A program made the translations under genes and the position numbers. A stretch of DNA of 64,000 bases. Origin: Paracyclopina nana. Taxonomy: Eukaryota > Arthropoda > Copepoda > Cyclopoida > Cyclopettidae. Below are positions 26,891-58,000 of this stretch, in pieces. The notes beneath the pieces were generated by a model that had not been told where the DNA came from, did no database searches, and saw only the letters and a program-made list of their open reading frames with translations. Position 1 is the first letter of the stretch; every line of letters starts with the position of its first letter. The stretch covers positions 5,042,001-5,106,000 of the forward strand of contig JAGUCH010000006.1 of the NCBI GenBank assembly GCA_019096065.1, given 5' to 3'.

Positions 26891-27600
26891 TTTACGTGCA
26901 CTTCAGCAATTCCGGCCTCATACGATAACCTCTAATATGCTGCACCTGGGACAATCACTGTCTTACTAAACTACTTTGCTACTTTCTCTTTTTTCGAGGC
27001 CGCTAGCTGCCGAGGCCGCTCCTGCTACCTCCTCCTACTCTCTATGCTCGGCCTCAGCGGCTATGCTGCAGCGACCACGGACTTTGTATAGCGAAATGCT
27101 GAAAAGCGCGAGGAGGCCATCGACGTCGGCCTCGTAGAAGCAGTGCGGCCTTAGTTGTGGAGCGCGGGCCGGCAGGCTTTCTCTGCGTAGGCCTTCTACA
27201 ACTACAGACTAGTACACCTCAAGATACATGCTACTACAATGAAAATACGAGAATGTGTGGTGGCCACTGCGCTCAGTTGTGAGGATCCACGCGCACGCGG
27301 TGGCCCTTATTATGAGCCCCGCTGCGAGGCCGGAAATGACCATGTGCTGATTTAGCACTAATTTCTCAGCCCTTTCAGCTCACGAGAGGGAGTACACGGC
27401 AAAAACATGACCTCGGCCGCGTGCTTGTGTGCGCGGCTCCAGCAATACATATCCTGTTTTACCCCAGCTCACCAAAGTCCGCGTTCTCCATCCGAGGCCG
27501 AGGCTGCTGCTGCTGCTGATGCGTATTGGTCGTCAACGTGAAAGCAGCAGAAGCAAAGCAGCCTCCATCCACCGATAAATAGAGGAAGTGGAGGTCACGA
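26891..27600 (-). promoter_or_regulatory. GC-rich 5' region of Shal
   Basis: The GC-rich block that begins in Shal exon 1 continues upstream to about 27.6 kb, with frequent CG and GGCC and a short CTG run near 27510. It probably holds the 5' untranslated region and promoter. No TATA box or defined initiator can be pinned down from the sequence. Confidence 0.4.
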
Positions 27601-32859: not shown

Positions 32860-34080
32860 TCAATGCAGATAATCCGGCGTGGGCTCCGCCAAAGGTTCCG
32901 GAGTGGTGAACAGAGGGTTGGGAAATTCAGGCGGATGTGGCAGCGGGCCGGCCGTTTTCGGCCTTTTTCTGTAGGCCATCAGCCAACAGGAGACAGCAAT
33001 GGCCACGGCCACCAAGGCCAACAAGGCCGTGATGACGAGAGCAATGATAAATCCGATCTTGGACACGCACACTTCCGCATTGAGTGCAGCCTTCTGCTGA
33101 GCCGCGAGGTCAGCTGTCCTCGAATCCGGCCTCCGTTCGATGGTCAAAATGGCATTGGATTGCACTTGGATTTCCTCTCGCAGCTCACCAGTGTACACAG
33201 CCCCAGCGATCTCGTGTTCGGATTCGCGCTTTTTGCGACGACCGTACGCGTTCACTCCTGCGCAATTTTGGGGTTGGCATTGGCCAAAGCAAACCCGGAT
33301 GTTGCACTTGAACTTGATCGTGTTGCCATCAGGGAATTTGAAGGCATCAAACAAGGCTGTGAGGTGGCCCTTGACTGGGTCGTAGTCCCAGTCGTGGAAA
33401 ATCTGCGGATCCGTTGCGCAGCCATTGGCATCGGTGACTGTGTAGATGGTCTCATCGTTGTTGTCGTCCACAGTACGGGCTTGGCAATTTCGAGCAAAGC
33501 CTCCATAGATCTCACGTGGCTGCACTTCCACCTTGAGCATCAGTTTGTCTCCAATTTCGGCCTGGCTGATGTCTTCGCCCACCTCGTTGCAGATGCGCAT
33601 TGTGCACGTGGGGGCTGGACCTGTGTTGGCGATGGTGCCCGCAGTGGTCAGCGTGGACACGTTGAAGCCAATGTTGAGGTTCTGCTCCCCAGTGTTGTAC
33701 ACACACCTGATCCTGTAGGCTTGGGCCTTGAACGTGAGCAACTTGGGGTGCTTCTGAATCACCAGCACAAACTTGGCCTCGCCCTACATTGAAATATTTT
33801 CAAAATATCATAAATCATTATTCCAAAGTAAAGCTTACATCGTTGTGGAAGAGGCCGCAATTTCCAAAGTTGACCGTGAAATCAATGGGGTCGGCGGCCT
33901 CGCCCTCAGCCACGTTTCTGCGGCATTCCGGAGCGTTGCTGTGGCCCTTGACATACATGACTCCGTGGAAGTTGGGATCAACGACCTTCACCGTCACTTG
34001 GACTCCATCCGCCAAACAGTTGACAAGAAGGTCAGGCCTTGGGAAGTCGCTTGGTGGAGGCTTGGGAGTGGTAATTGGAA
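32860..34080 (-). CDS. dp: Dumpy-like gene: ZP domain, furin-like site, transmembrane anchor and tail
   Basis: Exons are 34080-33839 and 33783-32860, joined by the only phase-0 intron of the gene; the stop is TGA at 32862-32860. A zona pellucida domain begins with LLVNCLADGVQVTV and continues with paired cysteines to CNIRVCFGQC. Next comes the basic stretch GRRKKRESE, matching the consensus furin-like cleavage site found after many ZP domains. A single hydrophobic segment (IGFIIALVITALLALVAVAI) and a short proline-rich cytoplasmic tail end the protein. ZP domains polymerise, so this end is expected to anchor and assemble the filament at the apical cell surface. Confidence 0.93.
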
Positions 34081-37000
34081 CTGAAACAATCAAATGTTGT
34101 TATAAAACAATGAAATACTATTTAAAATTTTATTAACGTACTGCATCCAGTCTTGGGATCACCAGTGAAGCCCTGGACACATTGGCAGTTGCACACGTGG
34201 TTGAAAGGAGTGCCAAAAGCATTGGGGCCACAAGGATCCCTGACGCAGGGATCGGCACAAGTCAAGTTCCTGGCTTCGCAATACTTGGTCGTATGGCAGT
34301 CCGGATCCACTCTGCAATCCGGAATATCCACGCAAATGCCCAGCTCGTTCAGTTCTTGTCCAGGTGGGCAAACACATTTGCCCGCAATGACGTCCAAGAC
34401 AAGTCCTCTGGAGCTGTCGCACACGCACTTCCCTTGAGCATCAATCACAAATCCAAGTTCCTTGGGGCAGGGCACACAATTGCCCTTGTCGTCAAAAGCA
34501 TATCCTGGAGGACACACACAGTTCTCATTTTCATCCAGGATGAGTCCCTTGCCAGGCGGGCAAGTCTTGACAGGTGTACATTGGATGGAAGCATCTCCTT
34601 CATAGCCTTCGATGCAAGTGCAGGTCATGGTTCTCACAGGCAGAGTATCAAGAACGGCGCACACCGCATTGATTCCGCAAGGCTCAGCCAAGGAGCAAGG
34701 ATTCTGGCACTGACCTCCAATGCAAGCAGTTTGCGATGGGCATTCGCTATCTGTCCTGCATCCAATCTCAGCCTTCACACATGCAGTTCCTCGGTCTCCC
34801 TGGAATCCAGCAGGGCAGGTGCAGTCCACGTTGTGGTTGAACACCTTACATTCTGCAGTGTTCTCGCAGGGATTCTCGATGGCACAGGGATCCTGGCAAA
34901 TCTTGTTGATGCAGGCCTTTTCAGGTGGGCACTCCGAATTGGCAGTACATTCAACATTTGTGCAAGTCACATAGGGGTCACCATCCAATCCGACTGGGCA
35001 GGTGCAAATTGGCTTGTGAGCTATGCCTGTACAATCCGCGTTGCCTCCACAGGGCAGGCCTTCAGGGCCGCACACTGGTGTGCACTCTCCATTCCTGCAT
35101 GCATGGCTTTCTTTGCACTCGCTGTCAGCCTGGCATCCCAGGATAACACAAGCAACTTCAGGGTCACCATAGTAGCCTGGTTCGCAAATACACACTGGTC
35201 TGTGGTTCGTGATGTCGCATTTGGCATTCAGGCCGCAGCCACAGGGGTCCCTGCAGACTGCATTGATGCAGGCAGTTTGGTCGTTGCACTCGTCGTCCCT
35301 TTCGCAGCCTGACACAATCGGCGGCAGGGTTCTGCAGCCTCCCTTGTCATCAGTGATGTAGCCTTCAGGGCAGATACACACCATCGTACGTATGGGCATT
35401 GAGTCTGCCAGCCTACAAGTGGCTGGTGCCACACACGGTGACAGGGTAACGCAAGGATTGATGCATTTCTCGTCAAGACACACTTGGTCAGTGGGGCAAT
35501 CCTTGTCTTCGACACATTCAGGCTCAGCAAAGGGCACACAGGCCCTGTAAGGATCCCCAGTGTAGCCAAATCTGCACCGACACTGTGCGAGATGTTGGCT
35601 TACCAGACAGTCTGCATTCGTTCCACATGGGTTATTGGTCAGGCAGGGATTGACACAGTCCCTGTTTTGGCAGGCTCGATCCAGTGGGCATTCTGGGTCG
35701 GTTCTGCAACCAATGGCAATGCATCCAACGAAAGGATCTCCTTCGAAGCCTTCATTGCATCTGCAGTTGGCCACGTGACTTTGTGGGAAGCAAACAGCAT
35801 TTGATCCACAAGGATCATTGATCAGGCAGGGATTGATACAGTTTCCTTGGACGCAGGTCTCTCCGTCCAGGCATTCACTGTCTGACTGGCATCCAGGGTC
35901 AAGGCAAGCAATTTGAGGGTTGCCAATCTTGCCTTCGGGGCACTTGCAAATCGGCCGATGTCCAGACAAGAAGCATTCGGCTCCTTTTCCGCAGTCGCAC
36001 GGATTCATGCAAATCCTGTTGACACAGGCTTCATTGGTGCCACACTCGTCATCCCTGATACATCCGGGTGGATTGTCAATTTCCAGGGGCACACAGCTGC
36101 GGTCTGTGTCAGGGATCCAGCCAGTTCTGCATGAGCAAATCATGGTCCTGAAGGGCACAGTGTCGACAACTGAGCAAACTGCCGAGACATCACAGGGACT
36201 CAGTTCATAGCAGGGATTCTGGCAGGTGTTGGTCAAGCAGGCTCTTCCTGAGGGACAGTCAGAGTCGACTTCACATTCCACTTCAGCCAAGTCAGGGATA
36301 GGGTCCAGTTTTGGTGAGCAGAGCACCAGGGGATCGCCAACGTATCCTGGTGGGCAGGTACAGGATGCGTCATGATTGATCACCCTGCAAATGGCAGTAG
36401 GAGCGCAAACGTTCTCTAGCAGGCAGGGATCAAGGCACTGGTTTTGAATACAAGCTTTGGTGGTAGCACAGTCCCTGTTGACGAAGCACTCAACTGTCTC
36501 ACAGTGCTCATAGGGGTTGCCAACGAGGCCTGCAGGGCAAATACATCTGGCAGCATGGTTCTGTGCCTCGCAAATGGCGTTGGAAGCACAAGGATTGGCC
36601 AATAGGCAAGGATTGATGCACTTGTTGCGATGGCAAACTTGGTCAGTTCTACAATCAGGATCAACTTGGCACTCCACTAAAGTGAAAAAAGAAAGTATCA
36701 TTGCTTGTTTTGAGGTTATCATGAACATGCACACGTATTTCTAAAAAAATTGGATCTGAGATTTTAAGAATAGTGATGAACTTTGGGAAGTTACCAAAAA
36801 CATTATTTGCTAAAACACCTAATCAATTTTTCGTGAGAATGCTTACGTTTTTGACATTCAATTTCTGGGTTTCCTGAATATCCTGGTGGGCAGAAGCAAA
36901 GAGGTTTGTGGTTGAAAACCTTGCACTCTGCATTTATGCCACAGTTGCAGGGATCAACACAAAGAGTGTTATGACAGGCCTTGTCAGTTGGACACTCATC

Positions 37001-40000
37001 ATCATGTTGACAGCCGACGGTAACTGGTTGTGCTGAAAGAAGGATGAAAAATAAGCAATGCTTAGCAGATCCTAAAGCAGCACTGAAAACACAAAAATGA
37101 TGACATAACCCAAAACAAAAAGCTTCATCCAATGAGAGTTGGATGCAAAAAAATGAAACACATCAGCTGAAAAAAAGACGGCAATTAACCCAGTGTATAT
37201 CTTCTTGTTTTGTCTTACGTGGAAGCTCGCATTTAATTTGAGGATCTCCAAAGTAGCCTGCTGGGCAAGCACATTTGGCTGTATGGTGGATAACTTTGCA
37301 AAAAGCGTTAGGTGCACATGGGTCGAGCACAGCACATGGGTTGCGGCATGCTTGATTCAAGCAGGCAGCATAATCAGGGCATTCCAGGTCACTACTACAT
37401 CCAACAATCACATCTATGGGTGCTGGTGTAACTGCAAAAAGGCAACAGGCAATGCACAATCAAAGCAGTATTAGCAAGCAAAAAGCACTTACTTGGGTAA
37501 CATGCAACTCTAGCATCTCCTGTGTAATTGGGAGGGCAAGTGCAAGTGGTTGTGTGATCTCTAGACGTGCAAATCGCATTTGTGCCACATTGTTCAACTC
37601 TACATGCGTCCAAGCAAGTGCCCGAGTGGCACTGCTCAGTTGTTCGGCAATCAGGATGCCTCTGACATTGGGTGACACCAGTCACTAAAAAAGCAAGGAT
37701 ATTTGTTCAGCTTCATTCTCGCAGACACCTACTTAACATCATAATACCTTGGACACATTCACCATTATTGCCAATGAGAAAGCCATCAGGGCAAACGCAA
37801 GCCATGGTTCTAAAGGGTAGGGAGTTCTCAACAACACATTGTTGCCCAGCTCTGCAAGGATTGTTTAACTGGCAAGGGTTTTGACAACGATCACCCAAGC
37901 AAGCCAATAATGATGGACAATCTCTATCAGCTCGGCATTCTGGTTCCTCAGATATTACAGCTAAAAGCCCACAAAGTAGCGTTTAGCGTTTTACGTGAGA
38001 TAAATGTAATGATGTGCTTACGCTCAATGCATGCTGCTAGGCCATCACCCTTCAGGGGAAACTTGCAAGTGCAAATTTCTGTGTGATCTCTTGCAGTGCA
38101 TTCTGCCCCAACAGCACAATTACCAGGCCTGCATAAAGGCTGACATTCCTTTCGGGTAAAGCCATTTCCAGGAACAAAATCACACTTTTCATTTGTAGCA
38201 CAATCAGTGTGGCTGCTGCAACCAGCCTCAACGCAAGCAATAATTGGATTGCCTTGGAGGCCGGGTGGACAGACACATATTGCAGCATGAAAGTCCACCT
38301 CACACCTCGCCCTTGAGCCACAAATAGTGCTCATACAAGGATTAACACATTCTTGTGATTTGCAGGCTTTGTCCAAAGGACAGTCTCGATCAACCTGACA
38401 TTCATCTGGAGAAAAGAAACCATTGACAATACTATGACAAAGCCAGAAAGAATTATCAACATACATTGGTAACATTCTCTGTAGGGATCACCAGCCCAAT
38501 TACTAGGGCACCTGCACACTGGTCTATGTCCAGTTGTTTGGCAAAGTGCATTTTTGCCACACGGATCCTCAACAGAGCAAGGGTCAAGGCATTGGTTCTG
38601 AATACATGCCTTGTTGTCGGGGCAATCTGTGTCAAACTGGCATTCTCCTTGTTTAACTATTTCAGAATTCTTTGGAAAAAATGTCTAACATAAATAATTA
38701 CAACTTCTTACTTGGAATACATAGACTGTAAGGATCACCAGTAAAACCAGGTGGGCATTTACAAGTTGACTGGTGATTGTTTGCAACACATTCAGCAGTA
38801 GAACTGCATGGACTATCAAAGGCGCAAGGATTGACACAAGCTCGATTTCTGCAGGCTTGAGTGAATGGGCACTCATTATCACTAGAGCAACCAACTTCAA
38901 CAGGTGCAGCTATTAACAGATAACAGATACACTCAAAAAACCTTTAAACATGTACCGAAAATTAATATACCAATTTGTTCACATCTTTCCCGTCCATTTC
39001 CAGTAAAACCGTCAAAGCAAACACAGCTCATAGTTCTTGTTGGTGTTGTGGAGTGAACTCTACAATTTGCATTAGCTACACATGGTCTTAGGGTTGAACA
39101 AGGGTCAACACAGCGATTTCTTCCCCCCTCTTGGTAACAAATCTCAAGCGCAGGGCAATCTATATCTACCCTACAATCCTGCTCTTCAATGACTGGCTCA
39201 GGTACTAATGAAGAGAACAAATGCAGATGGCAGCAAATAAGTAATCAAAAAATAAATTATTACTTGGCTTGCATCCTTCAAAATATGGATCACCGGTAAA
39301 TCCTGGCCTGCATGTGCAAATACCTCTGTGGTTTCTTGCCTCACAGTCAGCATTTGAAGCACACTGACATGGATCTACACACCTTTCACTTCTGCAAGCC
39401 AATGTTGTGGGGCATTCTGGGTCAGTCAAACACTCATATGGCCTACACTCAACATAGGGATTGCCTTTGTGGCCAGGTGGACACTCACACTTTGCAAAGT
39501 GCCGGTTAACAGAGCAAAGAGCTTTGATACCACACTGTTCAAATGGGCAAGGGTCTTGACATTCTCTCTGAATGCATGCTTGAGTAAGAGGGCATTCATC
39601 ATTGCTTTTACACCCAGCTGATAAAAAAATTAGTAGAACTATGGTATTTTCTTGCCTAATATTCATAGTCTTACGTTCTTCGCAAATTCTATAAGGATCT
39701 CCAATAAACCCAGGGTTGCAAATACAAGTAGCTCTATGTCTTGATGCTTTGCACTCAGCGTTAATTCCACAAGCACTAGTAAAGCAAGGGTTTTGGCAAG
39801 TCTCTCTTATGCATGCTAGGTGGTCAGGGCATTCAGGATCAGAAGTACATTCAGGCTTTGGTGCTGAAAAAAATTAACAGATCTGCAATAATGACATTTA
39901 AGTAAATTGATGCAAAAATCATAAAAGGATTACATAATTTCACAAACAAGACCTAGATCTAACAACAAAAGCCACTTACGAAGTTTACAATCTGTCTGTG

Positions 40001-43000
40001 GTGAACCGATGTAACCATCAGGACAAGTACAAACAGGCTCATGCTTGACAACCTTACAATAAGCAGTAGGAGCACAAGGCTGGTCTACAGCACAAGGATT
40101 AATGCAGGCAGTATTTCTACATGCACTATGGTCAGGGCAATCATCATTTCTTGCACAACCAACAAGCACTGGCTCAATAATGTTGTGAGGGACTAAAGAA
40201 AACATTTTTACCGAGAAAATCATAAATAAATTGAGGACTTACTCAGGCTGCATGCATGCTTTCCATTCCCTGTGTAACCAGAAATACAAGTGCACTCAAT
40301 GTCATGCTGAGTAGTGGTACAAACAGCAAATGGAGCACACTTGAATACCAAACATGCATTTACACAAGTTCCAGTATGGCAAACTTCACTTTGCCTACAA
40401 TCTTCATTGTGAGTGCATTCATTCTGAGCCTCACCTTCAAAACAACAGTTAATGCAACAAAAGAAAACAGGAAACAAATAACTTTCATGATATACCTTTT
40501 ATGCATTCACCATTATTGCCATATATCAAGCCTGATGGGCATTCACATGCAACACTCCTAAGAGAATCTCTTGCATCTTTAACAACACATTTTTGAGACC
40601 CAGTGCAAGGATTGCTGACAAGACAAGGATTTTGACATTTTTCATTCATGCAAGTCATCATGGAGGGACAATCCCTGTCAATCCTGCACTCAGGTTCATC
40701 AGCAATGATTTCTAAAATACCCAAAAGTTTACAATCAGCCAAGTTGACAAGTGTAGTCTACTTAAACTTACGCTCGACACATGCAGCATAGCCATCTCCC
40801 TTCAGAGGAAATCTGCATGTGCAAGTCTCTTGGTGATCCCTTGCAGAGCAATCAGCACCCTTGGCACAGTTCCCAGGGTTACAGAGCGGCTGGCATTCTT
40901 TGCGAGTAAACCCACTCCCAGGGATAAAGTCACATTTTTCATTTGTAGCACAATCTGTGTGACTGCTGCAACCAGCCTCAATGCAAGCAATGATTGGATT
41001 GCCTTGAAGGCCAGGAGGACATACACAAATAGCTGTGTGAAAGTCCACCTCACAAAGGGCCCTGGAGCCACACAGTGTAGACAAACAAGGATCAACACAC
41101 TCCTGAGACTTGCAAGCTTTGTCCAATGGACAATCTCGGTCAACCTGGCACTCATCTACAATCAAGATAGAGAAGCTCACAACTTGTTGAAACCCCTACT
41201 TATTGCTGCAAAACCTACATTGAAAGCACTCTCTGTGAGGATCGCCAGCCCAGCCACTTGGACACCTACAAACTGGTCTATGGCCTGTTGTTTGGCAGAG
41301 TGCATTTTTGCCACATGGATTGTCAATGGCACAAGGATCTAAGCACTGATTCTGAATACAAGCTTTGTTGTCAGCACACTCTGAATCAAGTTGGCATTCA
41401 CCTTGCTTGACTGAAATTACCAGAATAGGTTTTGATCAAAGTTCTAATAACATCTAATCCATATTATTCTTTGCTCTTACTTGCTACACAAAGGCTGTAT
41501 GGATCACCTGTCAAGCCAGGTGGACATTTACATTCTGCTTTGTGATTGTTTGCAGAGCACTCAGCAGTTGAGCTACATGGACTGTCATAAGCACAGGGAT
41601 TGACACAAGCTCGATTTCTGCAAGCTTGAGTAAATGGACATTCAGCATCACTGGAGCATCCAACCTCAACAGGAGCCGCTAACAAAAGGGAAAGAAACTA
41701 TGAAATGACTTCAATTTACCCCTACACATCAAAAGCTTACGTATTAGATCGCATCTTTCTCTTCCATTGCCAGTGTACCCATCAAAGCACACACAACTCA
41801 TGGTGCGAGTTGGTGTAGTGGAGTGCACCCTGCAGTTAGCATTTGCAACACAAGGCCGCAAAGTAGAGCAAGGGTCCACACATCGATTTCTACCACCTTC
41901 TTGATAGCAAATCTCTAAAGCTGGGCAATCTACATCAATCCTACAGTCTTGCTCCTCAACCACTGGCTCAGGAACTATGAAACAAGGGTTTTACTGGGGG
42001 CAAGCTGATTTTCAGAACATTTCAAAATGCTTACTTGGTTTGCACCCCTCCAAGTATGGATCACCAGTGAATCCTGGCCTACATGTGCAAATGCCTCTGT
42101 GATTTCTGGCCTCACAGTCAGCATTTGTAGCACACTGGCATGGATCTACACACTTTTCATTTCTACAAGCTAATGTAGTGGGGCATTCAGGGTCTGTCAA
42201 ACACTCATATGGCCTACACTCAATATAAGGACTGCCCTTGTGTCCTGGAGGACACTGGCACCTAGCAAAATGATTGCTAACAGAGCAAAGGGCTTTAATG
42301 CCACATTGCTCATATGGACAAGGATCCTGGCATTCCCTTTGTATGCATGCTTGTGTGAGCGGGCATTCATCATTACTTTTGCACCCAGCTAGAAAAAGTT
42401 TAACACTTTGTCAACATGGCTGATCTGATATTAAGCATTTGTGTCCTTACGCTCTTCACATATTCTGTAAGGATCTCCAATGTAGCCTGGGTTGCAGACA
42501 CAAGTTGCCCTGTGTCGAGATACTTGGCATTCTGCATTGACTCCACACGTGCTAGTGAAGCATGGATTTTGACATTTTTCTCTTATGCATGCAAGATGGT
42601 CTGGGCATTCAGGGTCTGTAACACATTCAGGTCTAGGGGCTGAAAAATAAATATTAGTCAATGCAAAGCAATCATTGCTAAAAGCATACGCAAAGTGCAA
42701 GCAACTTGTGGATCTCCAATGTATCCATCAGGGCATGAACAGACAGCTTTGTGATTCAATGCTTTGCAAATAGCAGAAGTCGAACATGGGTCACTTTTCC
42801 CACAAGGATTCAGACATAGTCTGTTGTAGCATGCTGCATAATCTGGGCACTCATAATCAGAATCGCAACCAGCAGTAACAGGTGAGACAGTGGCAGGTGC
42901 AACTAGTAAAAACATTATGTCACATAACATTTAACAATAAGTGAATTGATAAAACTCACATGGATAGCATGCAACATCTGGATTACCACTATAATCATCA

Positions 43001-46000
43001 TTGCACATGCAAATGCTATTATGGTTGCTGGCAATGCATTTAGCAAAGGTTCCACACGATTTTTTAATACATGCATTAGCACAGCTCCCAATGTGGCAGA
43101 TTTCAGAATTGCCACAGTCCAAATCAGAAATGCACTCAGGCACAGCTTGAACTATATGAAATAATGGAATATAATAAGCTAGATGCAAAAAACACTGTGT
43201 ATTAATTTAGCATTTTCATGTAGAAAGCTTTTTAGTTATTAACTGAAAAGGCAAAAAAGGTCTTAGATGTTATTGGGATCCCAATAATTCAGAAGTTAGT
43301 GTTGTTCTCAAAATTCAGAAGCTCTGTTAATACATGTTTTTAACTAACTCATAAGAAAGCTTTCTAAGCAAAGAAAAATGTTTCAAATAAAGAAATTAAT
43401 AAAATCCATGATTTTGGCAAATCACAGAGCCAAATTTCAGACTCCCATAAACTAAGCTATTAGATTAGTGATGAAACGAGCTTAAGCTTGGCTTGAAAGC
43501 TTGAAACAAAACCAAGGTTGAGCTAAAAATGCAAAATGCTGGGGATGGCTTGAACCAAAATTTTGAAAAGCTTGACACCAAAAATTATAAATGGGGATGC
43601 CTCACAATCAGCATTTAGCGCATGGGATTTCTCCACATGTGCATTAGGTCAGTAGCAAGGCTGCAACAGCAGCTCGCAAGTTGGAATCTCTCAAACACCC
43701 TTCAAAAAGCTTTCAGCGTGAAAAAGCTAAAAATTTCAGGCTCATTCAATCACTAAGTCAGATAAAAACCTGAAAAATTATGTAAGAAAAAAGTACAAAA
43801 AAATAGTCAAATTGCAAACAGAGCATGAGAAATAAACTGAAGTGAAAAGGAGCTTTAAATGCACTTCAATTTAAATTAAAAAGTGTGTCAACCCATTTTG
43901 ATTCAGCGCAAGGCATTTCTCTGCAGATGCAGTTTCTTTTTTTTTGCAAAATTGCTCTAACATAGGCTGTGGCCTTCTTTAAAGGTCATTTGTTTGATAT
44001 AAACTTCAGTAATGTACTAAGATAAGTCAGCTTAGTGAAAAAGATCAGTCTAAGAATATATTTTGGTCATGATTTAAAGTTGAAAATTTCAATTAGAGAC
44101 TGCTTCTTTAAGAAGGTCTTTTTGGAGGCAATGCACCCAGCAAAAAATGAACTGCTTATTTCAAAAAGGCCTGCTATGAAGACTGCACAATGGGTTTCCA
44201 AACTAAGCACAAAATTTGCCACACAAACTTCAAAAAAAGTAATAAACACTTTTTTGCCTTATTTACTTGCTTATGCTTTAATGAATTTGTGGAGAAAATA
44301 TGTGCACCAAATCGATATTTAGTGACTCACTCTTCCAAGTTAAAATACGCCCACATGAAAATGCTGGATTTAAAAATACCATGTTAGCAGAAATTAATAA
44401 AAAAATACATGAAAATTAAAAATTCAAATACTATGTCCACTCAATTATTCAAGGAAACAAAAGTATTGTATTGTAAAATTTACAAGATAATTTGAATACC
44501 TTGATTGCAAATTCCATTTTCACCAAAAATGTAACCGATGGGACAAACACATGCAACACTCTTAAAGGAAGTTCCAGAATCAGTAACAATACATTTTTGA
44601 GATCCAATGCAAGGATTGCTGACAAGACAAGGATTTTGACATTTTTCGTTCATGCAAGTCATCATGGAGGGACAATCCCTGTCAATCCTGCACTCAGGTT
44701 CATCAGCAATGATTTCTAAAATACCCAAAAGTTTACAATCAGCCAAGTTGACAAGTGTAGTCTACTTAAACTTACGCTCGACACATGCAGCATAGCCATC
44801 TCCCTTCAGAGGAAATCTGCATGTGCAAGTCTCTTGGTGATCCCTTGCAGAGCAATCAGCACCCTTGGCACAGTTCCCAGGGTTACAGAGCGGCTGGCAT
44901 TCTTTGCGAGTAAACCCACTCCCAGGGATAAAGTCACATTTTTCATTTGTAACACAATCTGTGTGACTGCTGCAACCAGCCTCAATGCAAGCAATGATTG
45001 GATTGCCTTGAAGGCCAGGAGGACATACACAAATAGCTGTGTGAAAGTCCACCTCACAAAGGGCCCTGGAGCCACACAGTGTAGACAAACAAGGATCAAC
45101 ACACTCCTGAGACTTGCAAGCTTTGTCCAATGGACAATCTCGGTCAACCTGGCACTCATCTACAATCAAGATAGAGAAGCTCACAACTTGTTGAAACCCC
45201 TACTTATTGCTGCAAAACCTACATTGAAAGCACTCTCTGTGAGGATCGCCAGCCCAGCCACTTGGACACCTACAAACTGGTCTATGGCCTGTTGTTTGGC
45301 AGAGTGCATTTTTGCCACATGGATTGTCAATGGCACAAGGATCTAAGCACTGATTCTGAATACAAGCTTTGTTGTCAGCACACTCTGAATCAAGTTGGCA
45401 TTCACCTTGCTTGACTGAAATTACCAGAATAGGTTTTGATCAAAGTTCTAATAACATCTAATCCATATTATTCTTTGCTCTTACTTGCTACACAAAGGCT
45501 GTATGGATCACCTGTCAAGCCAGGTGGGCATTTACATTCTGCTTTGTGATTGTTTGCAGAGCACTCAGCAGTTGAGCTACATGGACTGTCATAAGCACAG
45601 GGATTGACACAAGCTCGATTTCTGCAAGCTTGAGTAAATGGACATTCAGCATCACTGGAGCATCCAACCTCAACAGGAGCCGCTAACAAAAGGGAAAGAA
45701 ACTATGAAATGACTTCAATTTACCCCTACACATCAAAAGCTTACGTATTAGATCGCATCTTTCTCTTCCATTGCCAGTGTACCCATCAAAGCAAACACAA
45801 CTCATGGTGCGAGTTGGTGTAGTGGAGTGCACCCTGCAGTTAGCATTTGCAACACAAGGCCGCAAAGTAGAGCAAGGGTCCACACATCGATTTCTACCAC
45901 CTTCTTGATAGCAAATCTCTAAAGCTGGGCAATCTACATCAATCCTACAGTCTTGCTCCTCAACCACTGGCTCAGGAACTATGAAACAAGGGTTTTACTG

Positions 46001-49000
46001 GGGGCAAGCTGATTTTCAGAACATTTCAAAATGCTTACTTGGTTTGCACCCCTCCAAGTATGGATCACCAGTGAATCCTGGCCTACATGTGCAAATGCCT
46101 CTGTGATTTCTGGCCTCACAGTCAGCATTTGTAGCACACTGGCATGGATCTATACACTTTTCATTTCTACAAGCTAATGTAGTGGGGCATTCAGGGTCTG
46201 TCAAACACTCATATGGCCTACACTCAATATAAGGACTGCCCTTGTGTCCTGGAGGACACTGGCACCTAGCAAAATGATTGCTAACAGAGCAAAGGGCTTT
46301 AATGCCACATTGCTCATATGGACAAGGATCCTGGCATTCCCTTTGTATGCATGCTTGTGTGAGCGGGCATTCATCATTACTTTTGCACCCAGCTAGAAAA
46401 AGTTTAACACTTTGTCAACATGGCTGATCTGATATTAAGCATTTGTGTCCTTACGCTCTTCACATATTCTGTAAGGATCTCCAATGTAGCCTGGGTTGCA
46501 GACACAAGTTGCCCTGTGTCGAGTTACTTGGCATTCTGCATTGACTCCACACGTGCTAGTGAAGCATGGATTTTGACATTTTTCTCTTATGCATGCAAGA
46601 TGGTCTGGGCATTCAGAATCAAGCAAGCATTCTGGCCTTAAAGCTGAAATGAAGATTTGGATGTGGCATAATGTTTTTACAATGGAAATATAAGAACTTA
46701 AATTGCAATCTTAAATCTTGGACTAAAAAAATATGTTATTAAACATTACTTTTTAACACTATGGTTGACAAATAACACATTAGCCTCACATTGTCTGAAA
46801 ACTTACGCAAAGAACAAGATACTTCAGGACTTCCAATATAGCCATCAGGGCATGAACATACAGCCTCATGCTTTGTAACTTTACAAAATGCATTTGCAGC
46901 GCAGGGGTTATGTTCAGCACAGGGATTTAGACACTTTCTTGATTGACATGCAGAGTAATCGGGACAATCATTGTCATGGCTACAACCGCTCTCGATCGGT
47001 TCAGTTATAATTGGATCTGTTGCAAAAATGATATCAATAGAGCTCATAATTTCGATAGATGAAATCACACCTTGAAGGCATGCAATGTTTGGATTTCCAT
47101 TGTAACCTGGCAAGCATTCACATTCCCCTCTATGATATTTAGGCATGCAAATAGAGTTACTTCCACAGGGAACAGATTGGCATGCATTTATGCATGTTCC
47201 CTGAAAACATTTCTTGTCTTCAGAGCATTCAAAGTCAATGGTGCATTGAGGTTTGGCATCAACTGAAATAAAATAATTATCATGCACTAGATATAGAATG
47301 GCATTTAACATGCATACCACTTTCACAGGTTCCACCATAGCCAGCTAATGTTCCCAATGGGCAGACACATGCAACACTTTTGAAGGATGACAATGAGGAG
47401 GTTACAACACATTGTTGAGAACCAGTGCAAGGATTGCTTGCAATGCATGGGTTTTGACAAGTTTCTCTCAAGCAGGTCAGCAGTTGCGGACAATCTCTAT
47501 CAACCCTACATTCTGGTTCATCAGCTACTATTGCTGCAAAAACAGATGGGTCAATATGTGATGGAATCATTAAGTTTTTTATTTTGCCCTTACACTCAAC
47601 ACATGCTGCATAGCCATCTCCCTTCAGAGGAAATCTGCATGTGCAAGTCTCTTGGTGATCCCTTGCAGAGCAATCAGCACCCTTGGCACAGCTCCCAGGG
47701 TTACAGAGCGGCTGGCATTCTTTGCGAGTAAACCCACTCCCAGGGATAAAGTCACATCTTTCATTTGTAGCACAATCTGTGTGACTGCTGCAACCAGCCT
47801 CAATGCAAGCAATGATTGGATTGCCTTGAAGGCCAGGAGGACATACACAAATAGCTGTGTGAAAGTCCACCTCACAAAGGGCCCTGGAGCCACACAGTGT
47901 AGACAAACAAGGATCAACACACTCCTGAGACTTGCAAGCTTTGTCCAATGGACAATCTCGGTCAACCTGGCACTCATCTACAATCAAGATAGAGAAGCTC
48001 ACAACTTGTTGAAACCCCTACTTATTGCTGCAAAACCTACATTGAAAGCACTCTCTGTGAGGATCGCCAGCCCGGCCACTTGGACACCTACAAACTGGTC
48101 TATGGCCTGTTGTTTGGCAGAGTGCATTTTTGCCACATGGATTGTCAATGGCACAAGGATCTAAGCACTGATTCTGAATACAAGCTTTGTTGTCAGCACA
48201 CTCTGAATCAAGTTGGCATTCACCTTGCTTGACTGAAATTACCAGAATAGGTTTTGATCAAAGTTCTAATAACATCTAATCCATATTATTCTTTGCTCTT
48301 ACTTGCTACACAAAGGCTGTATGGATCACCTGTCAAGCCAGGTGGGCATTTACATTCTGCTTTGTGATTGTTTGCAGAGCACTCAGCAGTTGAGCTACAT
48401 GGACTGTCATAAGCACAGGGATTGACACAAGCTCGATTTCTGCAAGCTTGAGTAAATGGACATTCAGCATCACTGGAGCATCCAACCTCAACAGGAGCCG
48501 CTAACAAAAGGGAAAGAAACTATGAAATGACTTCAATTTACCCCTACACATCAAAAGCTTACGTATTAGATCGCATCTTTCTCTTCCATTGCCAGTGTAC
48601 CCATCAAAGCAAACACAACTCATGGTGCGAGTTGGTGTAGTGGAGTGCACCCTGCAGTTAGCATTTGCAACACAAGGCCGCAAAGTAGAGCAAGGGTCCA
48701 CACATCGATTTCTACCACCTTCTTGATAGCAAATCTCTAAAGCTGGGCAATCTACATCAATCCTACAGTCTTGCTCCTCAACCACTGGCTCAGGAACTAT
48801 GAAACAAGGGTTTTACTGGGGGCAAGCTGATTTTCAGAACATTTCAAAATGCTTACTTGGTTTGCACCCCTCCAAGTATGGATCACCAGTGAATCCTGGC
48901 CTACATGTGCAAATGCCTCTGTGATTTCTGGCCTCACAGTCAGCATTTGTAGCACACTGGCATGGATCTACACACTTTTCATTTCTACAAGCTAATGTAG

Positions 49001-52000
49001 TGGGGCATTCAGGGTCTGTCAAACACTCATATGGCCTACACTCAATATAAGGACTGCCCTTGTGTCCTGGAGGACACTGGCACCTAGCAAAATGATTGCT
49101 AACAGAGCAAAGGGCTTTAATGCCACATTGCTCATATGGACAAGGATCCTGGCATTCCCTTTGTATGCATGCTTGTGTGAGCGGGCATTCATCATTACTT
49201 TTGCAACCAGCTAGTGATATTAAACATAAAAATGTTAAGTTTCATTTAGCAATTGATGAAGTAACAATGGCTCTTACGCTCTTCACAAATCCTATATGGA
49301 TCTCCCACAAACCCTGCATTGCATACACAAACAGCTCGGTGTCTGGTGGCCCTACACTCAGCATTAACTCCACAAGTGCTAGTGAAGCATGGATTTTGAC
49401 ACTTCTCCCTTATGCATGCAAGGTGGTCAGGACATTCAACGTCGGTAGTGCACTCAGGCCTGGGGGCTAAAATTTATGTTTAACAGATTAATTTTTGAAT
49501 TTCTATGGGTTCTCTAAAATTCTTGTAGATAGATATTTCAATTAATTGTATCCCTAGAGGCATCCCAACCTGGTAGGGGCCATTGCTTATCTGGCAAATT
49601 TGGAATGTCAGTTCGGCTCTTGACCCAATACCAGCTCATTGGTGGTGGCTATGCTCAACCTTCACAAATTCTTATTACTTTTATGTATTTTATGAGTGTC
49701 AGTGTCATGAACTACATTAGGATCAATCACTAAATATAGCTTTTAGCTGAGATGGCTAAGCAGTACATAAGTTCTGAACACATAATTTTCATGATTTTTT
49801 AATATAGAGGAAAATAATGAACATAATCCATCAAGAAATGGATAAGGATCACTATACCTCATTAGATCCTTGCACCATCTCTTTCATTTAACCATCTTAG
49901 AAAAAGGAAGTATTTAGTAAGTATTAAACTCAGCACTTGGTTAATGTGCAGACACTCTTCCTTATAAGCTTATGATTTGTTTGGTACACCCAAGTGGAGA
50001 TTTACTTTTTTAGAGGTTCACATTAGGCTTTTTTAGCAAATAGAAGTTTTTGCAATTAAGACCTCGGATAAAGCTCTTCAAAGATTTTTGACTTAATGAG
50101 ACTATTTTGAATTCAGTATTGAAATTCAGATAAAAAGTTTGATCAAATTGTTGGCTGATTTCCTATCAAAATGGAAAAACTAAGACCTATAATTTTGAAA
50201 GCAATTATCTAGGCTCAAGTAAGCACACTAGCTAATAGAATTTAAAATATTTACTTACGCAAGGAACATGAAATTTCAGGACTTCCAATATACCCATCTG
50301 GACAAGTACACACTGCCCTATGACCAATTACTTTACAAAATGCATTCACAGCACATGGGTTTTGTTCGGCACAAGGATTGAGGCATTTTCGTGATACACA
50401 AGATGTGTAGTCAGGACAATCATTGTTATTTGTGCAACCACTTGTTATTGGTTGTATGATAACAGGATCTACATAAATAATATCCTCAAACAATAGATTT
50501 ACAGCTTATGGATAAATTTACCTTGTAAGCATGCAATGTTTGGATTTCCATTGTAACCTGGCAAGCATTCACATTCCCCTCTATGATATTTAGGCATGCA
50601 AATAGAGTTACTTCCACAGGGAACAGATTGGCATGCATTTATGCATGTTCCCTGAAAACATTTCTTGTCTTCAGAGCATTCAAAGTCAATGGTGCATTGA
50701 GGTTTGGCATCAACTGAAATAAAATAATTATCATGCACTAGATATAGAATGGCATTTAACATGCATACCACTTTCACAGGTTCCACCATAGCCAGCTAAT
50801 GTTCCCAATGGGCAGACACATGCAACACTTTTGAAGGATGACAATGAGGAGGTTACAACACATTGTTGAGAACCAGTGCAAGGATTGCTTGCAATGCATG
50901 GGTTTTGACAAGTTTCTCTCAAGCAGGTCAGCAGTTGCGGACAATCTCTATCAACCCTACATTCTGGTTCATCAGCTACTATTGCTGCAAAAACAGATGG
51001 GTCAATATGTGATGGAATCATTAAGTTTTTTATTTTGCCCTTACACTCAACACATGCAGCATAGCCATCTCCCTTCAGAGGAAATCTGCATGTGCAAGTC
51101 TCTTGGTGATCCCTTGCAGAGCAATCAGCACCCTTGGCACAGCTCCCAGGGTTACAGAGCGGCTGGCATTCTTTGCGAGTAAACCCACTCCCAGGGATAA
51201 AGTCACATCTTTCATTTGTAGCACAATCTGTGTGACTGCTGCAACCAGCCTCAATGCAAGCAATGATTGGATTGCCTTGAAGGCCAGGAGGACATACACA
51301 AATAGCAGTGTGAAAGTCCACCTCACAAAGGGCCCTGGAGCCACACAGTGTAGACAAACAAGGATCAACACACTCCTGAGACTTGCAAGCTTTGTCCAAT
51401 GGACAATCTCGGTCAACCTGGCACTCATCTACAATCAAGATAGAGAAGCTCACAACTTGTTGAAACCCCTACTTATTGCTGCAAAACCTACATTGAAAGC
51501 ACTCTCTGTGAGGATCGCCAGCCCAGCCACTTGGACACCTACAAACTGGTCTATGGCCTGTTGTTTGGCAGAGTGCATTTTTGCCACATGGATTGTCAAT
51601 GGCACAAGGATCTAAGCACTGATTCTGAATACAAGCTTTGTTGTCAGCACACTCTGAATCAAGTTGGCATTCACCTTGCTTGACTGAAATTACCAGAATA
51701 GGTTTTGATCAAAGTTCTAATAACATCTAATCCATATTATTCTTTGCTCTTACTTGCTACACAAAGGCTGTATGGATCACCTGTCAAGCCAGGTGGGCAT
51801 TTACATTCTGCTTTGTGATTGTTTGCAGAGCACTCAGCAGTTGAGCTACATGGACTGTCATAAGCACAGGGATTGACACAAGCTCGATTTCTGCAAGCTT
51901 GAGTAAATGGACATTCAGCATCACTGGAGCATCCAACCTCAACAGGAGCCGCTAACAAAAGGGAAAGAAACTATGAAATGACTTCAATTTACCCCTACAC

Positions 52001-55000
52001 ATCAAAAGCTTACGTATTAGATCGCATCTTTCTCTTCCATTGCCAGTGTACCCATCAAAGCACACACAACTCATGGTGCGAGTTGGTGTAGTGGAGTGCA
52101 CCCTGCAGTTAGCATTTGCAACACAAGGCCGCAAAGTAGAGCAAGGGTCCACACATCGATTTCTACCACCTTCTTGATAGCAAATCTCTAAAGCTGGGCA
52201 ATCTACATCAATCCTACAGTCTTGCTCCTCAACCACTGGCTCAGGAACTATGAAACAAGGGTTTTACTGGGGGCAAGCTGATTTTCAGAACATTTCAAAA
52301 TGCTTACTTGGTTTGCACCCCTCCAAGTATGGATCACCAGTGAATCCTGGCCTACATGTGCAAATGCCTCTGTGATTTCTGGCCTCACAGTCAGCATTTG
52401 TAGCACACTGGCATGGATCTACACACTTTTCATTTCTACAAGCTAATGTAGTGGGGCATTCAGGGTCTGTCAAACACTCATATGGCCTACACTCAATATA
52501 AGGACTGCCCTTATGTCCTGGAGGACACTGGCACCTAGCAAAATGATTGCTAACAGAGCAAAGGGCTTTAATGCCACATTGCTCATATGGACAAGGATCC
52601 TGGCATTCCCTTTGTATGCATGCTTGTGTGAGCGGGCATTCATCATTACTTTTGCAACCAGCTAGTGATATTAAACATAAAAATGTTAAGTTTCATTTAG
52701 CAATTGATGAAGTAACAATGGCTCTTACGCTCTTCACAAATCCTATATGGATCTCCCACAAACCCTGGATTGCATACACAAACAGCTCGGTGTCTGGTGG
52801 CCCTACACTCAGCATTAACTCCACACGTGCTAGTGAAGCATGGATTTTGACACTTCTCCCTTATGCATGCAAGGTGGTCAGGACATTCAATATCAGAAGT
52901 ACATTCAGGTTTAGGTGCTGTAAAGTTACGAAAATATCATGCAAAGAAATCATGGCTCTTATTGAATTCATTTTTGCTCTAGATATTTGAAAAAAGTTGA
53001 GTTTAATGTTTGACTTACGCAGTTGACACGATGTTGTTGGGTCACCTATGTATCCATCTGGGCATGTGCACACTGGTTTATGATTAACTACTTTGCAAAA
53101 GGCATTACGAGCACATGGATCATTAATTGCGCATGGATTGATGCACTTTTGATTTTGACATGCAGTGTAGTCAGGACAGTCATTATCGGAATAGCATCCA
53201 ACTTGAACTTGCGGTGGGTTTATAGGAGCTGGAAGATTTTTTAATAGTTATAATTTTGAAAAACATCTATTTTTGCTTGATGGCAACTTTGGCTGAAACA
53301 GCAAATCATATACCTGAAAAACAAGAACCATAAGGATCTCCATTATATCCTTGGTTGCATTCACAGTTTCCAGTATGAAATCCTGCCACACATCTAGCAT
53401 TGTGTCCACAAATGATCAAATCACATGCTGGCTTGCACGATCCTGAGTGACACTTATCAGGAGCATTGCAATCTGAGTCACTAAGGCATTCAGCTTGAGG
53501 TTCAACTAAAGACAGAATTTGACAATCAACAATTACCGAGGGTTTTGACGATCAGTTACCTTGAGAGCAAGTGCCACCATAGCCTGCCAATGTGCCAGGT
53601 GGACAGATACATGCAACACTCCTATATGAAGATGATGAATCTGTGACTATGCATTGTTGAGATGTAGAGCAAGGATTGTTAACTTTGCAGGGATTTTGAC
53701 AAGTCTCAGAAATGCATGTCAGCTGAAGTGGACAATCTCTATCCACTCTGCATTCTGGCTCATCAGCAATAACAGCTAAAAAATATCAATATGACAGTTG
53801 TGAATTTTAAAAAGCTTTAAAATTTGCTTACGTTCAGCACAAACGGCATACCCATCTCCTTGCAATGGAAAACGACAAGTACATGTCTCAGCATGATCTC
53901 TAGCAATACAGTCAGCCCCTAATGCACAATTTCCAGGCTTGCATAAAGGTTGGCACTCTTTCCTAGTGAATCCACTGCCAGGGAGGTAATCACATTTTTC
54001 ATCGCTAGCACATTCTGAATGGGTTCTACAACCAGCTTCGATGCATGCAACAAGAGGATTGCCTTGTAGGCCAGCAGGACAGTCACAGATTGGAATATGA
54101 ATTTCAACTTCACAAACAGCTCTGCTGCCACAGATTGTGGAAAGGCAAGGATCAACACACTCCTGTGACTTGCAAGCTTTATCAAGAGGGCAATCTTTGT
54201 CAACCAAGCATTCAACTAAAATTAACTTAAAATAAAGTTACTTGGAATAAAGAATAAGACTTTACGGCATACATTGATAGCATTCCCTGTGAGGGTCACC
54301 CGCCCACCCACTAGGGCATCTACAAACTGGCCTGTGCCCAGTTGTTTGGCAGAGAGTATTTTTGCCGCAAGGATCTTCAACAGTACAGGGATCAAGACAT
54401 TGACTCTTGATACAAGCTTTGTTGTCAGGACACTCAAAATCATGTTGGCACTCTCCAGTTTTGACTGCATAAAAAAGAATTAACTCCTTCTGATAAATGA
54501 ATAATGATAATGCTTTACTTGGGATGCAAGAGCTATATGCATCTCCTGTATACCCCGGTGGACATTTACAAGTAGCTTGGTGGTTGCTAGTTATACATTC
54601 TGCCAGAGGACTACATGGACTATCAAAAGCGCATGGATTGATGCAGGCTCGGTTTCTACAAGCTTGAGATATAGGACACTCATCATTACTGGAACATCCA
54701 ACCTCAATAGGGGCAACTGTATCAAAGCAAAAATGAGCCATTAACAAACATTAAACCTTCTTTTTAGCTACCTATTGGTTCACAATTTTCTCGACCATTG
54801 CCAGTAAATCCTTCAAAACAGATGCAGCTCATTGTTCTAGTAGGAGTGGTGGAATGAACCCTACAATTTGCATTGGCAGCACATGGGCTTAGTGTGGAAC
54901 AAGGGTCTACACATCGATTGTTTCCACCTCCTTGATAGCAGATCTCTAATGCTGAGCAATCTGTGTCTTTCCTGCAATCTTGCTCTTCCACTACAGGCTC

Positions 55001-58000
55001 AGGCACTATACAGAAATATTATTGTAGGTGATTTTGTTTGAAATATAATGGTAGCTTACATGGCTTGCACCCTTCAAAATAAGGATCACCAGTGTAATCT
55101 GGTCTGCAAGTGCAAATGCCTCTGTGATTTCTTGCCTCACAATCAGCATTGGATGCACATTGGCAAGGATCTACACATTTTTCATTCCTACAGGCTAATG
55201 TAGTTGGGCATTCTTGATCAGTCAGACATTCATAAGGCTGGCATTCAATATAAGGGTTTCCCTTATGCCCTGGTGGACACTGGCACCTAGCTACATGATT
55301 GGCAACAGAGCAAACTGCTCTTATTCCACAATTTTCAAGAGGGCAAGGATCTTGGCATTCTCTCTGTATGCAAGCTTGATTCAAAGGGCACTCATTGTCA
55401 TTTTTACAGCCAGCTAATCAAAAATAGTAATTAGAATCCTTTAATTATGGCTAGTATCATAATCTTACGCTCTTCACAGATTCGGTAGGGATCACCAACA
55501 AAACCTGGGTTACATATACATATGGCTCTATGCTGCGTAACCCTGCACTCTGCATTAACTCCACACGTGCTTGTGAAGCATGGATTTTTGCATTTTTCAT
55601 CTACACATGCAAGATGTTCAGGGCATTCAGGATCAATCGTGCATTCAGGCTTTGCTGTAAAAAATTCAAGCATAAGCAATGTTCTATAAAACTGTTCTAA
55701 AATTGGCGGCCAAATACCTCACTAGGCTCTATGATAAATGCATGCAACCAAGCAATAACTTACGAGGGTCACATCTGTTGAAGGGATCTCCAAAATATCC
55801 AGGTATGCAGGAGCAGATGGCATTATGGTTGCTTACTCTGCATTCTGCATTTATGCCACAAATCCCACCTTGGCAGGGATCAACGCATTTGTAATTTTGA
55901 CACGCCAACGAAGAGACACAGTCTGGGTTGTATTCGCACTCTCTTCTGCACCCAACAAATGGATCACCAAAGAAGTTGATTTCACACTCACACAAACATC
56001 TGTTTCCAGAAGGTCTGGCTATCGCATTTGTACCACATGGATTTGGCTGACAAGGGTCTCTTGGCGGCTCAGGTTTTTTATTGCCTTTGAAGGGAATAAA
56101 CCGTTCATCCATGCCCAACATAAAGATTTAGACAATTTTAAACTTACATATGGAAAAGGGATCACCAATGTAGCCAGTCAGGCATTTGCAGATGGCATTG
56201 TGATTTTGCACATAGCATTCAGCATTTTGGCCACAGATTCCTATGCAAGGCTCTTGGCACTTGTGACTTATGCAAGCTAGAGAGCTAGGACAATCAGCAT
56301 TGATAGAGCACTCATATCTACAGTTCGGAGGAGATCCTAAGAACCCATCTAAGCACATACAAGCTGCATATCCATTTTGGTTCTTGCAGAATGCGTTTGG
56401 TCCGCATGGATTAGGAAAGCAAGGATCAACAACAATAGCCTCGGTTGTGGTCTCTGGGACTAAATAACAATAGAATGTTAGAATGACAGCTCAAAAGTAC
56501 AAGTAACTTGTCTTACTTCGATCACATCTTATAAAGGCATCAGGCACACCTTGATAACCAGGCAAGCAAGAGCAAATTGCATTGTGGTTTATAACGTTGC
56601 ATTCAGCATTGATTCCGCATATTCCAGGACTGCAAGGATTGGCACACTTCTGGTCAATGCAAGCCAAGTTTTGTCTGCACTCAGAATTGACCAAGCATTC
56701 AGGGCGACAATTAGGTGGGCTCCCAATGTATCCTGGAGAGCAAGTGCACATGCAAACTCCCCTCACTTCTTTGAAATCGCTGTATGGACCACATCTGTTT
56801 TGGTCGCATATCTCCCTTTCCTCTTCAACTTGCTCGACTGAAAATAAGTAGGTAGATACTCTTCTTTAAAATAAGTTAAAATGAAATGAGCTTACTAATT
56901 TTCTTGCATTCAATGGATGGATTTCCCGTGTATCCTTGCAAGCAGTCACAATGGGGTGCATGGTTTTGTACATTACAGATTGCATTGAGGCCACAAACTC
57001 CAGGGCAAGGATCAACGCATTTTTGATTGCTGCATGCTTTGTTACTTGGACAGTCTTGATTTTGGATACACTCAGGTCTGCATGAAAGGAAGGGATCGCC
57101 AAAGTATCCTTCAATACAGACACAAGTTGCAGCTCTGTTCCTCTTGTTACATATAGCGTTGTCACCACATGGACTTGGCGAGCAAGGATCAATTGGTTGA
57201 CCTAAAGAACATTTATTAAGACCAATAATTGACACACTTTTACTCTGGCTTACTTGGTGGTATAGGTGAGCATCCAGAACTGTATGGGTCACCTTGAGTA
57301 CCTGCAGGGCAAGTGCACACAGGTCTGTGAGAAATCACAGCACATTCAGCTCTAGGTCCGCATGTTCCAGGGCAAGGATCTCTGCATTTTTGCTGAATGC
57401 ATGCAGCATTGCTAGGACAGTCAGGATTAATGAGACACTCAGGCCTGCAGTTGGGAGGCACACCAACATATCCTTGTTGACAAACGCAGCCTGCAATATT
57501 CCCATTGCGAACAGTACATTCAGAGTAAGGTCCACAAGGAGAGGGGTTGCAAGGATCAACTGGTTCTTCCACAACAGGCTCGACAGGCTCTTTAAAAGGG
57601 AATCACAAAATTGATTGAAAACCATTTGTGCGCAAATAATTTAATAACTTACGAATAGTGCATCTAGAGGAAGGATCTCCAATATAGCCTGGAGGACATT
57701 GGCAGATTGCATTATGGCTCACAACTTGACATCTTGCATTGATACCACAAATGTCACCTTGGCAAGGATCAACGCATTTGTAGTTTAAGCAGGCTTTAAC
57801 CAGGCTACAATCAGAGCTGACCACACATTCAGGGTGGCAATTAGGAGCAACTCCTTGATATCCAGGCAAGCAGGAGCAGACACAGTGGCCATCCTGCTCG
57901 TATTTTTGGCTGTAGGGTCCACAAGGGTCAGGATCACAAGGATCACTTTCAACAGGCTCTGAAAATGTAATTGATGAAAAACTGCTTGAAATTTTCTTGC

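Follow-up and report, generated by a model that had tools for sequence, protein, structure and literature searches.

A six-fold tandem array of a nine-exon EGF/DPY block with a near-identical inner core in a Dumpy-type gene of the copepod Paracyclopina nana

Introduction

In insects, Dumpy ties the skin to the cuticle. Giant matrix proteins such as Dumpy carry hundreds of similar modules, and it is an open question how they remain regular while neither losing nor gaining length. Work by Carmon from 2007 is said to describe an expanded region adjoining the PIGSFEAST repeats of Dumpy in mosquitoes and Tribolium.

Fly Dumpy contains a super repeat of six EGF-DPY-EGF units, which occurs 13 times (Wilkin et al., 2000, as reported in PMC10895422). 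The array described here belongs to the same family and is likewise a higher-order EGF/DPY repeat, in the fly seen by cysteine spacing. Likened by description, the fly repeat consists of six EGF-DPY-EGF triads (639 aa in the construct of PMC10895422), whereas the copepod block comprises eleven DPY-EGF diads in 723 aa, is spread over nine exons and stands six times in tandem; its period is not that of the fly super repeat of about 639 aa. PIGSFEAST repeats represent another case of concerted evolution inside Drosophila dumpy. Some 40 copies of a 102-aa repeat lie in one large exon and are attributed most likely to unequal crossing-over (PMC2930355), whereas here a multi-exon tract with introns is involved and the copy number is apparently unchanged.

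Nebulin, a muscle protein, carries an eight-exon block three times in its triplicate region. These 10-kb blocks vary in copy number between people (PMC9109913), whereas in the copepod, represented by one assembly, only part of the block is alike. The zinc-finger exons of teleost Piccolo b have also been amplified in tandem and in frame, with a single exon as unit and unequal crossing-over as proposed cause; in the author's model, diversity between the repeats stabilises their number (PMC3484663). Intragenic homogenisation of structural-protein repeats occurs in the spider aciniform spidroin AcSp1. This protein is unrelated, and the likeness of its repeats (>98% identity in pairwise comparison) is not confined to one part (PMC3933166).

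An earlier note on the present DNA had put forward the higher-order Dumpy repeat for a first description, a claim weakened by the reported fly 'super repeat' (PMC10895422). As far as these accounts go, higher-order Dumpy repeats are already known, and the nine-exon, six-copy form with an apparently rewritten inner core adds to them. Among the literature matches listed, no title or opening of an abstract described the present array; Wilkin et al. (2000) may contain an earlier one.

Organization of the array

The window, the whole stretch of 64,000 nucleotides analysed (contig JAGUCH010000006.1, positions 5,042,001 to 5,106,000), carries 54 predicted exons on its minus strand from 55654 to 37219, six times nine in the same order each time. 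From exon A to exon I, 5' to 3' on that strand, the lengths are 189, 354, 234, 198, 192, 384, 216, 192, and 210 nt; the exceptions are A of copy 1 (186 nt), G of copy 6 (213 nt), and I of copies 4-6 (213 nt). The array comprises 13017 nt of coding sequence with no stop in 54 exons. All introns inside it (53/53) are GT-AG and of phase 1, so that every array exon is frame-symmetric. Each copy encodes 722-724 residues and eleven DPY-EGF units of ten cysteines each, and the cysteine number per exon is constant across the six copies. Each copy has the CxPLCxPGNC unit in exon F, where copies 2 and 3 read PGSC, and the RTMSC unit in exon C. The earlier note had read 54 consecutive exons at 37219-55654, lengths repeating six times in order, about 723 residues and eleven cysteine-rich units per period, and recurring unit types; all of this was confirmed.

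Copy 1 (53019-55654, minus strand) is the 5'-most, with exons A-I at 55654-55469, 55413-55060, 55005-54772, 54716-54519, 54464-54273, 54215-53832, 53775-53560, 53505-53314, and 53228-53019. The exons of copy 2 (50259-52917, minus strand) lie at 52917-52729, 52661-52308, 52247-52014, 51951-51754, 51683-51492, 51428-51045, 50984-50769, 50713-50522, and 50468-50259. Copy 3 (46807-49466, minus strand) comprises 49466-49278, 49210-48857, 48796-48563, 48500-48303, 48232-48041, 47977-47594, 47533-47318, 47262-47071, and 47016-46807. For copy 4 (42690-46643, minus strand) the positions are 46643-46455, 46392-46039, 45978-45745, 45682-45485, 45414-45223, 45159-44776, 44715-44500, 43151-42960, and 42902-42690. 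Copy 5 (39980-42639, minus strand) follows with 42639-42451, 42388-42035, 41974-41741, 41678-41481, 41410-41219, 41155-40772, 40711-40496, 40434-40243, and 40192-39980. The 3'-most copy 6 (37219-39863, minus strand) has its exons at 39863-39675, 39617-39264, 39204-38971, 38909-38712, 38656-38465, 38405-38022, 37960-37748, 37684-37493, and 37431-37219.

Knowledge of the expected lengths entered into the refinement of some exon boundaries; at a lag of nine, the refined lengths agreed within 6 nt in 45/45 comparisons. In 10,000 shuffles of the exon lengths, the mean was 11.1 and the maximum 20 agreements. Three checks were independent of this refinement or less affected by it. A chain built without it already had 37/54 exons exact. 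DNA self-comparison revealed six-copy repeat families with matches for 15/15 pairs of copies. The self-identity of the spliced protein peaked at lag 723 (0.52; median 0.07 over lags 20-1599), the period anticipated in the earlier note. A tree of the units (FastTree) placed 11/11 unit positions in monophyletic clades, each of six copies (support 0.85-0.998). As each position forms its own clade of six, the block was assembled once and then multiplied.

Two introns are long, the junction intron between copies 2 and 3 (792 nt) and the G-H intron of copy 4 (1348 nt). By blastn at E 1e-3, neither matched any other part of the window, and no further array-type exon was seen by eye among their minus-strand open frames of at least 30 aa.

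Gene context

The array lies in the 3' part of one predicted Dumpy-type gene. DPY, EGF and ZP models together with the clades of the unit tree support the proposed Dumpy-type gene and exon-level supermodule. On copy 2, the sole copy scanned, PF21164 (DPY) matches with E 2.9e-23, four stretches out of the 11 units passing alone, and PF12947 and PF00008 indicate EGF modules beside the DPY modules. PF21164 also matches the tail exon (E 1.5e-28) and the upstream part (E 4.2e-27). The array is composed of DPY-EGF diads only. The upstream part of the same gene (55764-63740, minus strand; exon chain read by eye, exon limits approximate) continues beyond the window. It shows EGF-DPY-EGF triad exons at about 56-61 kb, as read by eye from the translation, with matches to DPY and EGF models at 57606-58676; cysteine-rich units of other kinds lie at 62-64 kb.

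In the downstream tail (34125-37122, minus strand), an exon with a single unit (within 37122-36847) is followed by a long exon. The latter encodes eleven further DPY-EGF units and a twelfth irregular one and is not collinear with the supermodule. A seventh, intron-less copy was rejected as its identity: with the preceding single unit included, the last unit cut to 66 residues and the irregular twelfth left out, 105/300 shuffled unit orders reached the observed score, and copy 1 as control beat 300/300. A ZP domain and then a hydrophobic, transmembrane-like stretch follow at 32863-34099 (minus strand). PF00100 (E 7.4e-10) and CUT_C (E 3.7e-10) match 32863-33783; 33821-34099 and the hydrophobic stretch were read from the translation. 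Joined to the array by strand and order, this part is likely the C-terminal end of the gene.

Three of the six copies were aligned as a query for relatives; with two short peptide patterns each, viral contigs gave 46 pattern matches and prokaryote genomes 18, and tblastn confirmed none of them. By sequence, copy 2 matched no solved chain at E 0.001. An AlphaFold model of exon B (alignment of five of the six copies) was of fair quality (pLDDT 74.4, pTM 0.38). Its best two solved matches were EGF chains of Notch-2 (E 7e-4) and NELL1 (E 9e-4) with TM scores of only 0.27-0.29; the modelled structure supports EGF character and no more. The exon F model (alignment of four of the six copies) was set aside with a pLDDT of 39.8.

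Age and divergence of the copies

The six copies are old, and their silent sites are near saturation. Synonymous differences per exon amount to 0.57-0.92 of sites in the pairs 1/2, 1/6 and 2/6, nonsynonymous differences in exons A-F to 0.04-0.17. Outside the tracts described below, the inner copies are equally old by synonymous difference (copies 2/3, 0.74 in exon I; copies 4/5, 0.68 in H and 0.77 in I). Exon I of copies 5/6, with its total, was left out of the synonymous comparison, as it had been paired without alignment (3% identity); its aligned DNA is 56.9% identical. Reading frame, cysteine number and exon lengths of the block have been kept since the old multiplication.

Exon DNA is 57-80% identical between copies 1 and 2. 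For exon I, identity is 53-74% over all 15 pairs, with the highest value (73.8%) in copies 2 and 3. Exon H is strongly diverged between copies 2-5, except 2 versus 3; in copies 4 and 5, H is 54.7% identical and I 56.3%. Compared with one another, the five I-A junction introns (50-792 nt) are 2-33% alike, gaps counted. Since exon I and the junction introns are diverged in all pairs, no whole-block duplication is visible at the time of homogenisation. The earlier note had implied a protein lengthening by about 720 residues at a time; such growth as a process of today was not supported, the copies being old and no recent gain of a whole block being visible (exon I at most 73.8%, junction introns dissimilar). 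Recent events seem to have altered the inner blocks in sequence, with no visible change in their number.

The homogenised core

Exons B-F and their four introns form a near-identical core in copies 2 (51050-52665), 3 (49214-47599), 4 (46396-44781), and 5 (42392-40777), all on the minus strand. Over 1616 bp, the four pairs between {2,3} and {4,5} are 99.5-99.6% identical without gaps. Longer tracts exist within the pairs. Copies 2 (50529-52890) and 3 (49439-47078) share 2362 bp at 99.7%, from inside exon A to inside exon H, copies 4 (44584-46616) and 5 (42612-40580) 2033 bp at 99.56% (both minus strand). Copies 2-5 have longest exact common runs of 537-896 bp with one another; with copies 1 or 6, such runs do not exceed 28 bp.

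In the core alignment of copies 2-5, 13/1617 columns are variable, all exonic, and 7/13 variants occur in a single copy. The 255 intron bases are identical in copies 2-5. With 255/1617 intronic columns, 13/13 variants would fall in exons with a chance of about 0.1, which is not unusual. All six pairs show 2-5 synonymous differences per ~285 sites and 1-5 nonsynonymous differences per ~1062 sites. Set against copies 1 or 6, the four introns of the inner copies reach only 21-48% similarity and are therefore not under constraint. The core edges are sharp and lie no more than ~5 bp from where exon B starts and exon F ends. The hallmark of intragenic conversion, a sharp-edged near-identity between diverged segments that includes silent sites and introns, was thus found, with a less sharp 4/5 edge (98, 78, and 60% identity in successive windows through exon G). 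Site 52063 in the core splits {2,5} from {3,4}, across the main pairing 2/3 and 4/5.

Origin of the near-identity

An old six-fold multiplication, followed by non-reciprocal exchange among the inner four copies, is probably the best explanation. The block of 11 units and nine exons was multiplied long ago to six copies. Later, copies 2-5 would have exchanged sequence by ectopic gene conversion, or by a double exchange of the same effect after misalignment of the copies. As introns were carried along, the exchange should have been DNA-templated. It would have rewritten the 1.6-kb core in all of copies 2-5 and, inside the pairs 2/3 and 4/5, longer tracts as well, leaving exon I and the copy-specific junction introns outside. 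That these diverged parts limit copy-number-changing crossing-over is only an idea.

Several points speak against conversion. Tracts of 1.6-2.4 kb would be long for it, conversion tracts being usually under 300 bp (cited in PMC3484663). The edge precision at exons B and F is puzzling for an exchange that spanned four inner introns; that the outer introns lack homology is a possible factor. The fall of identity in exon G of copies 4/5 is not sharp, and the grouping at site 52063 opposes a simple order of events. Near-identity across much of the block, above all in the 2/3 tract, would also fit a recent tandem duplication of whole blocks through unequal crossing-over, the mechanism reported as most likely for another fly Dumpy repeat (PMC2930355). 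Such a duplication should have copied the full period with exon I and the I-A junction intron; however, the best exon I pair reaches 73.8%, the junction introns lack mutual resemblance, and copies 4/5 drop from 99.6% over 2033 bp to 54.7% in H and 56.3% in I, which makes this origin of copies 2-5 quite improbable. Copies 2 and 3, closest in exon I, may have been the last to arise by a whole-block split, which would itself be old.

Strong selection on the protein alone, consistent with the protein conservation of exons A-F between the compared copies, is extremely unlikely to have kept the cores alike. It is refuted by four introns 100% identical in copies 2-5, unless these are extremely constrained, and opposed by 2-5 synonymous differences per ~285 sites against 0.57-0.92 of sites in the pairs 1/2, 1/6 and 2/6. 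The core is a repeat type that confuses assemblers, and it could have been collapsed and its consensus inserted at four places, or the flanks misjoined through it. Yet the six blocks are distinct places because exon I and the junction intron differ per block, the cores differ at 13 sites, seven of them in one copy alone, and to either side of the core the copies pair in the same way, 2/3 and 4/5. Some real near-identity should exist, as truly diverged cores would not collapse, and an artefact is unlikely.

Significance for Dumpy-type proteins

The array appears to separate two processes, in that its blocks are old and settled in number and an inner part was homogenised recently. By analogy with known Dumpy biology, its 66 DPY-EGF units would belong to a long extracellular strand tying epidermis to cuticle, in which the likeness of the inner copies would make part of the fibre uniform. 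All 54 exons being frame-symmetric, skipping of exons or blocks could set the fibre length by splicing. It is conceivable, if somewhat doubtful, that within this one gene neighbouring blocks repeatedly have their exon-bounded cassette of five exons (B-F) rewritten by conversion, with the diverged exons G-I and copy-specific junction introns marking and stabilising each block. If so, sequence uniformity and length of the fibre would be under separate control. The apparent rewriting of inner copies hints at how huge repeat proteins could stay uniform at constant length, and the balance of conversion, crossing-over and selection is testable at this array in one species and its relatives.

Exon architecture of the array

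The genes in the window are of animal type and bear introns. A minus-strand exon chain, built without length information, gave a long run of cysteine-rich exons separated by phase-1 introns. Merged or shortened exons were then refined; 37 of 54 had already been exact. The refined array (55654-37219, minus strand) comprises six tandem copies of nine exons, A to I, copy 1 being 5'-most. Exon A measures 189 nt (186 in copy 1), exons B to F 354, 234, 198, 192 and 384 nt, exon G 216 nt (213 in copy 6), exon H 192 nt and exon I 210 nt (213 in copies 4-6), with 722-724 codons per copy. All 53 introns are GT-AG, and the 13017 coding nt contain no stop codons. DNA self-comparison independently revealed the six-fold repeat. 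Exon lengths at lag 9 agreed within 6 nt in 45/45 comparisons (maximum of 20 in 10,000 shuffles), and protein self-identity peaked at lag 723. Both the six nine-exon copies and the period of about 723 residues, which an earlier note had proposed from the sequence alone, were thereby confirmed.

Two introns, 43152-44499 (1348 nt) and 49467-50258 (792 nt), far exceed the other 51 (50-163 nt) and look A+T-rich by eye. Blastn found no match to either elsewhere within the window; they are possibly insertion remnants.

Gene identity and neighbouring genes

Matches to the Pfam models for the DPY module and for EGF were obtained with copy 2, the long tail exon downstream of the array and one upstream exon. 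ZP-C and cuticlin C-terminal models match the last exon, which has a hydrophobic stretch close to its end. The array and its flanks form the 3' portion of a Dumpy gene; strand and order suggest that the ZP exon lies in the same transcript. Array modules are DPY-EGF diads, unlike those upstream (about 56-61 kb), which read as EGF-DPY-EGF triads. The tail exon (34125-36740, minus strand) carries eleven further DPY-EGF units without interruption, in an apparent four-unit rhythm noted by eye from the unit list (RTM-type unit, short unit, two others).

Downstream of dumpy, on the minus strand (25772-26902 and about 22626-22856), lies a potassium channel gene of the Shal type (Kv4), which matches PF11601 and, among solved structures, KCND2 best. 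At 22722-22835, Rfam reports a 'potassium channel RNA editing signal', which may reflect only coding conservation, since it falls inside the apparent S6-coding exon by translation. On the plus strand, the window edge carries an exon of a Runt-domain (Runx-type) transcription factor (2-910), and a transmembrane domain of the class C GPCR type (PF00003, E 2.4e-11) is encoded by a single long open frame (8113-9732).

Origin and homogenization of the block

The array was split into 66 units of ten cysteines each. A tree built from 79 units (66 of the array, 12 of the tail exon, one of the exon between) placed all 11 positions in separate clades of six (support 0.85-0.998), indicating that the 11-unit block was present before its multiplication. 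Silent sites are close to saturation in comparisons among copy 1, copy 6 and the inner copies, 2-5. Exons A-F are well kept at the protein level across copies; exons H and I diverge far more (35-62% identity; pairs 1v2, 1v6, 2v6, 1v5), with cysteine number unchanged. The block is old and subject to purifying selection.

Likeness among copies 2-5 is uneven along the block. The core (exons B-F with introns BC, CD, DE and EF) is 99.5-99.6% identical in all four {2,3} versus {4,5} pairs, as a gap-free tract of 1616 bp with common ends. The tract is longer between copies 2 and 3 (2362 bp, inside exon A to inside exon H) and between copies 4 and 5 (2033 bp, inside exon A to inside exon G). Outside the tracts, one or two 60-column windows suffice for identity to fall to the level of unrelated introns and old exons; the fall is more gradual for copies 4/5, in exon G. 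Among 13 variable core sites, seven are single-copy, five split {2,3} from {4,5} and one splits {2,5} from {3,4}, a pattern compatible with more than one order of exchange.

Non-reciprocal exchange between blocks best explains the near-identical core, introns included. Protein selection cannot produce identical introns. Recent whole-block duplication is unlikely to have produced the near identity because block-adding crossing-over necessarily duplicates exon I and a junction: exon I reaches at most 73.8% identity in all 15 copy pairs, and the I-A introns joining successive copies 2-33%, gaps counted. Misassembly of near-identical cores is possible, although every block has flanks of its own.

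Known repeats and proposed function

This kind of repeat is already known: fly Dumpy is reported to contain a super repeat, made of six EGF-DPY-EGF units and present thirteen times (PMC10895422, citing Wilkin et al.), and the nebulin triplicate region an eight-exon block present three times (PMC9109913). No description of the array was found among the literature matches listed. The particular nine-exon, 11-diad block in six copies appears new, as does recent homogenization confined to a part of the block bounded by exon ends, with block number apparently unchanged.

Dumpy is described as a giant extracellular ZP-domain protein through which the epidermis is anchored to the cuticle and which contributes to bearing tension (PMC2930355; PMC10895422; PMC12426002). 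The array would supply 66 diads to its extracellular strand. Diverged G-I segments may reduce length-altering mispairing, a brake resembling a model published for piccolo b (PMC3484663), while homogenized inner blocks may give the strand uniform properties.
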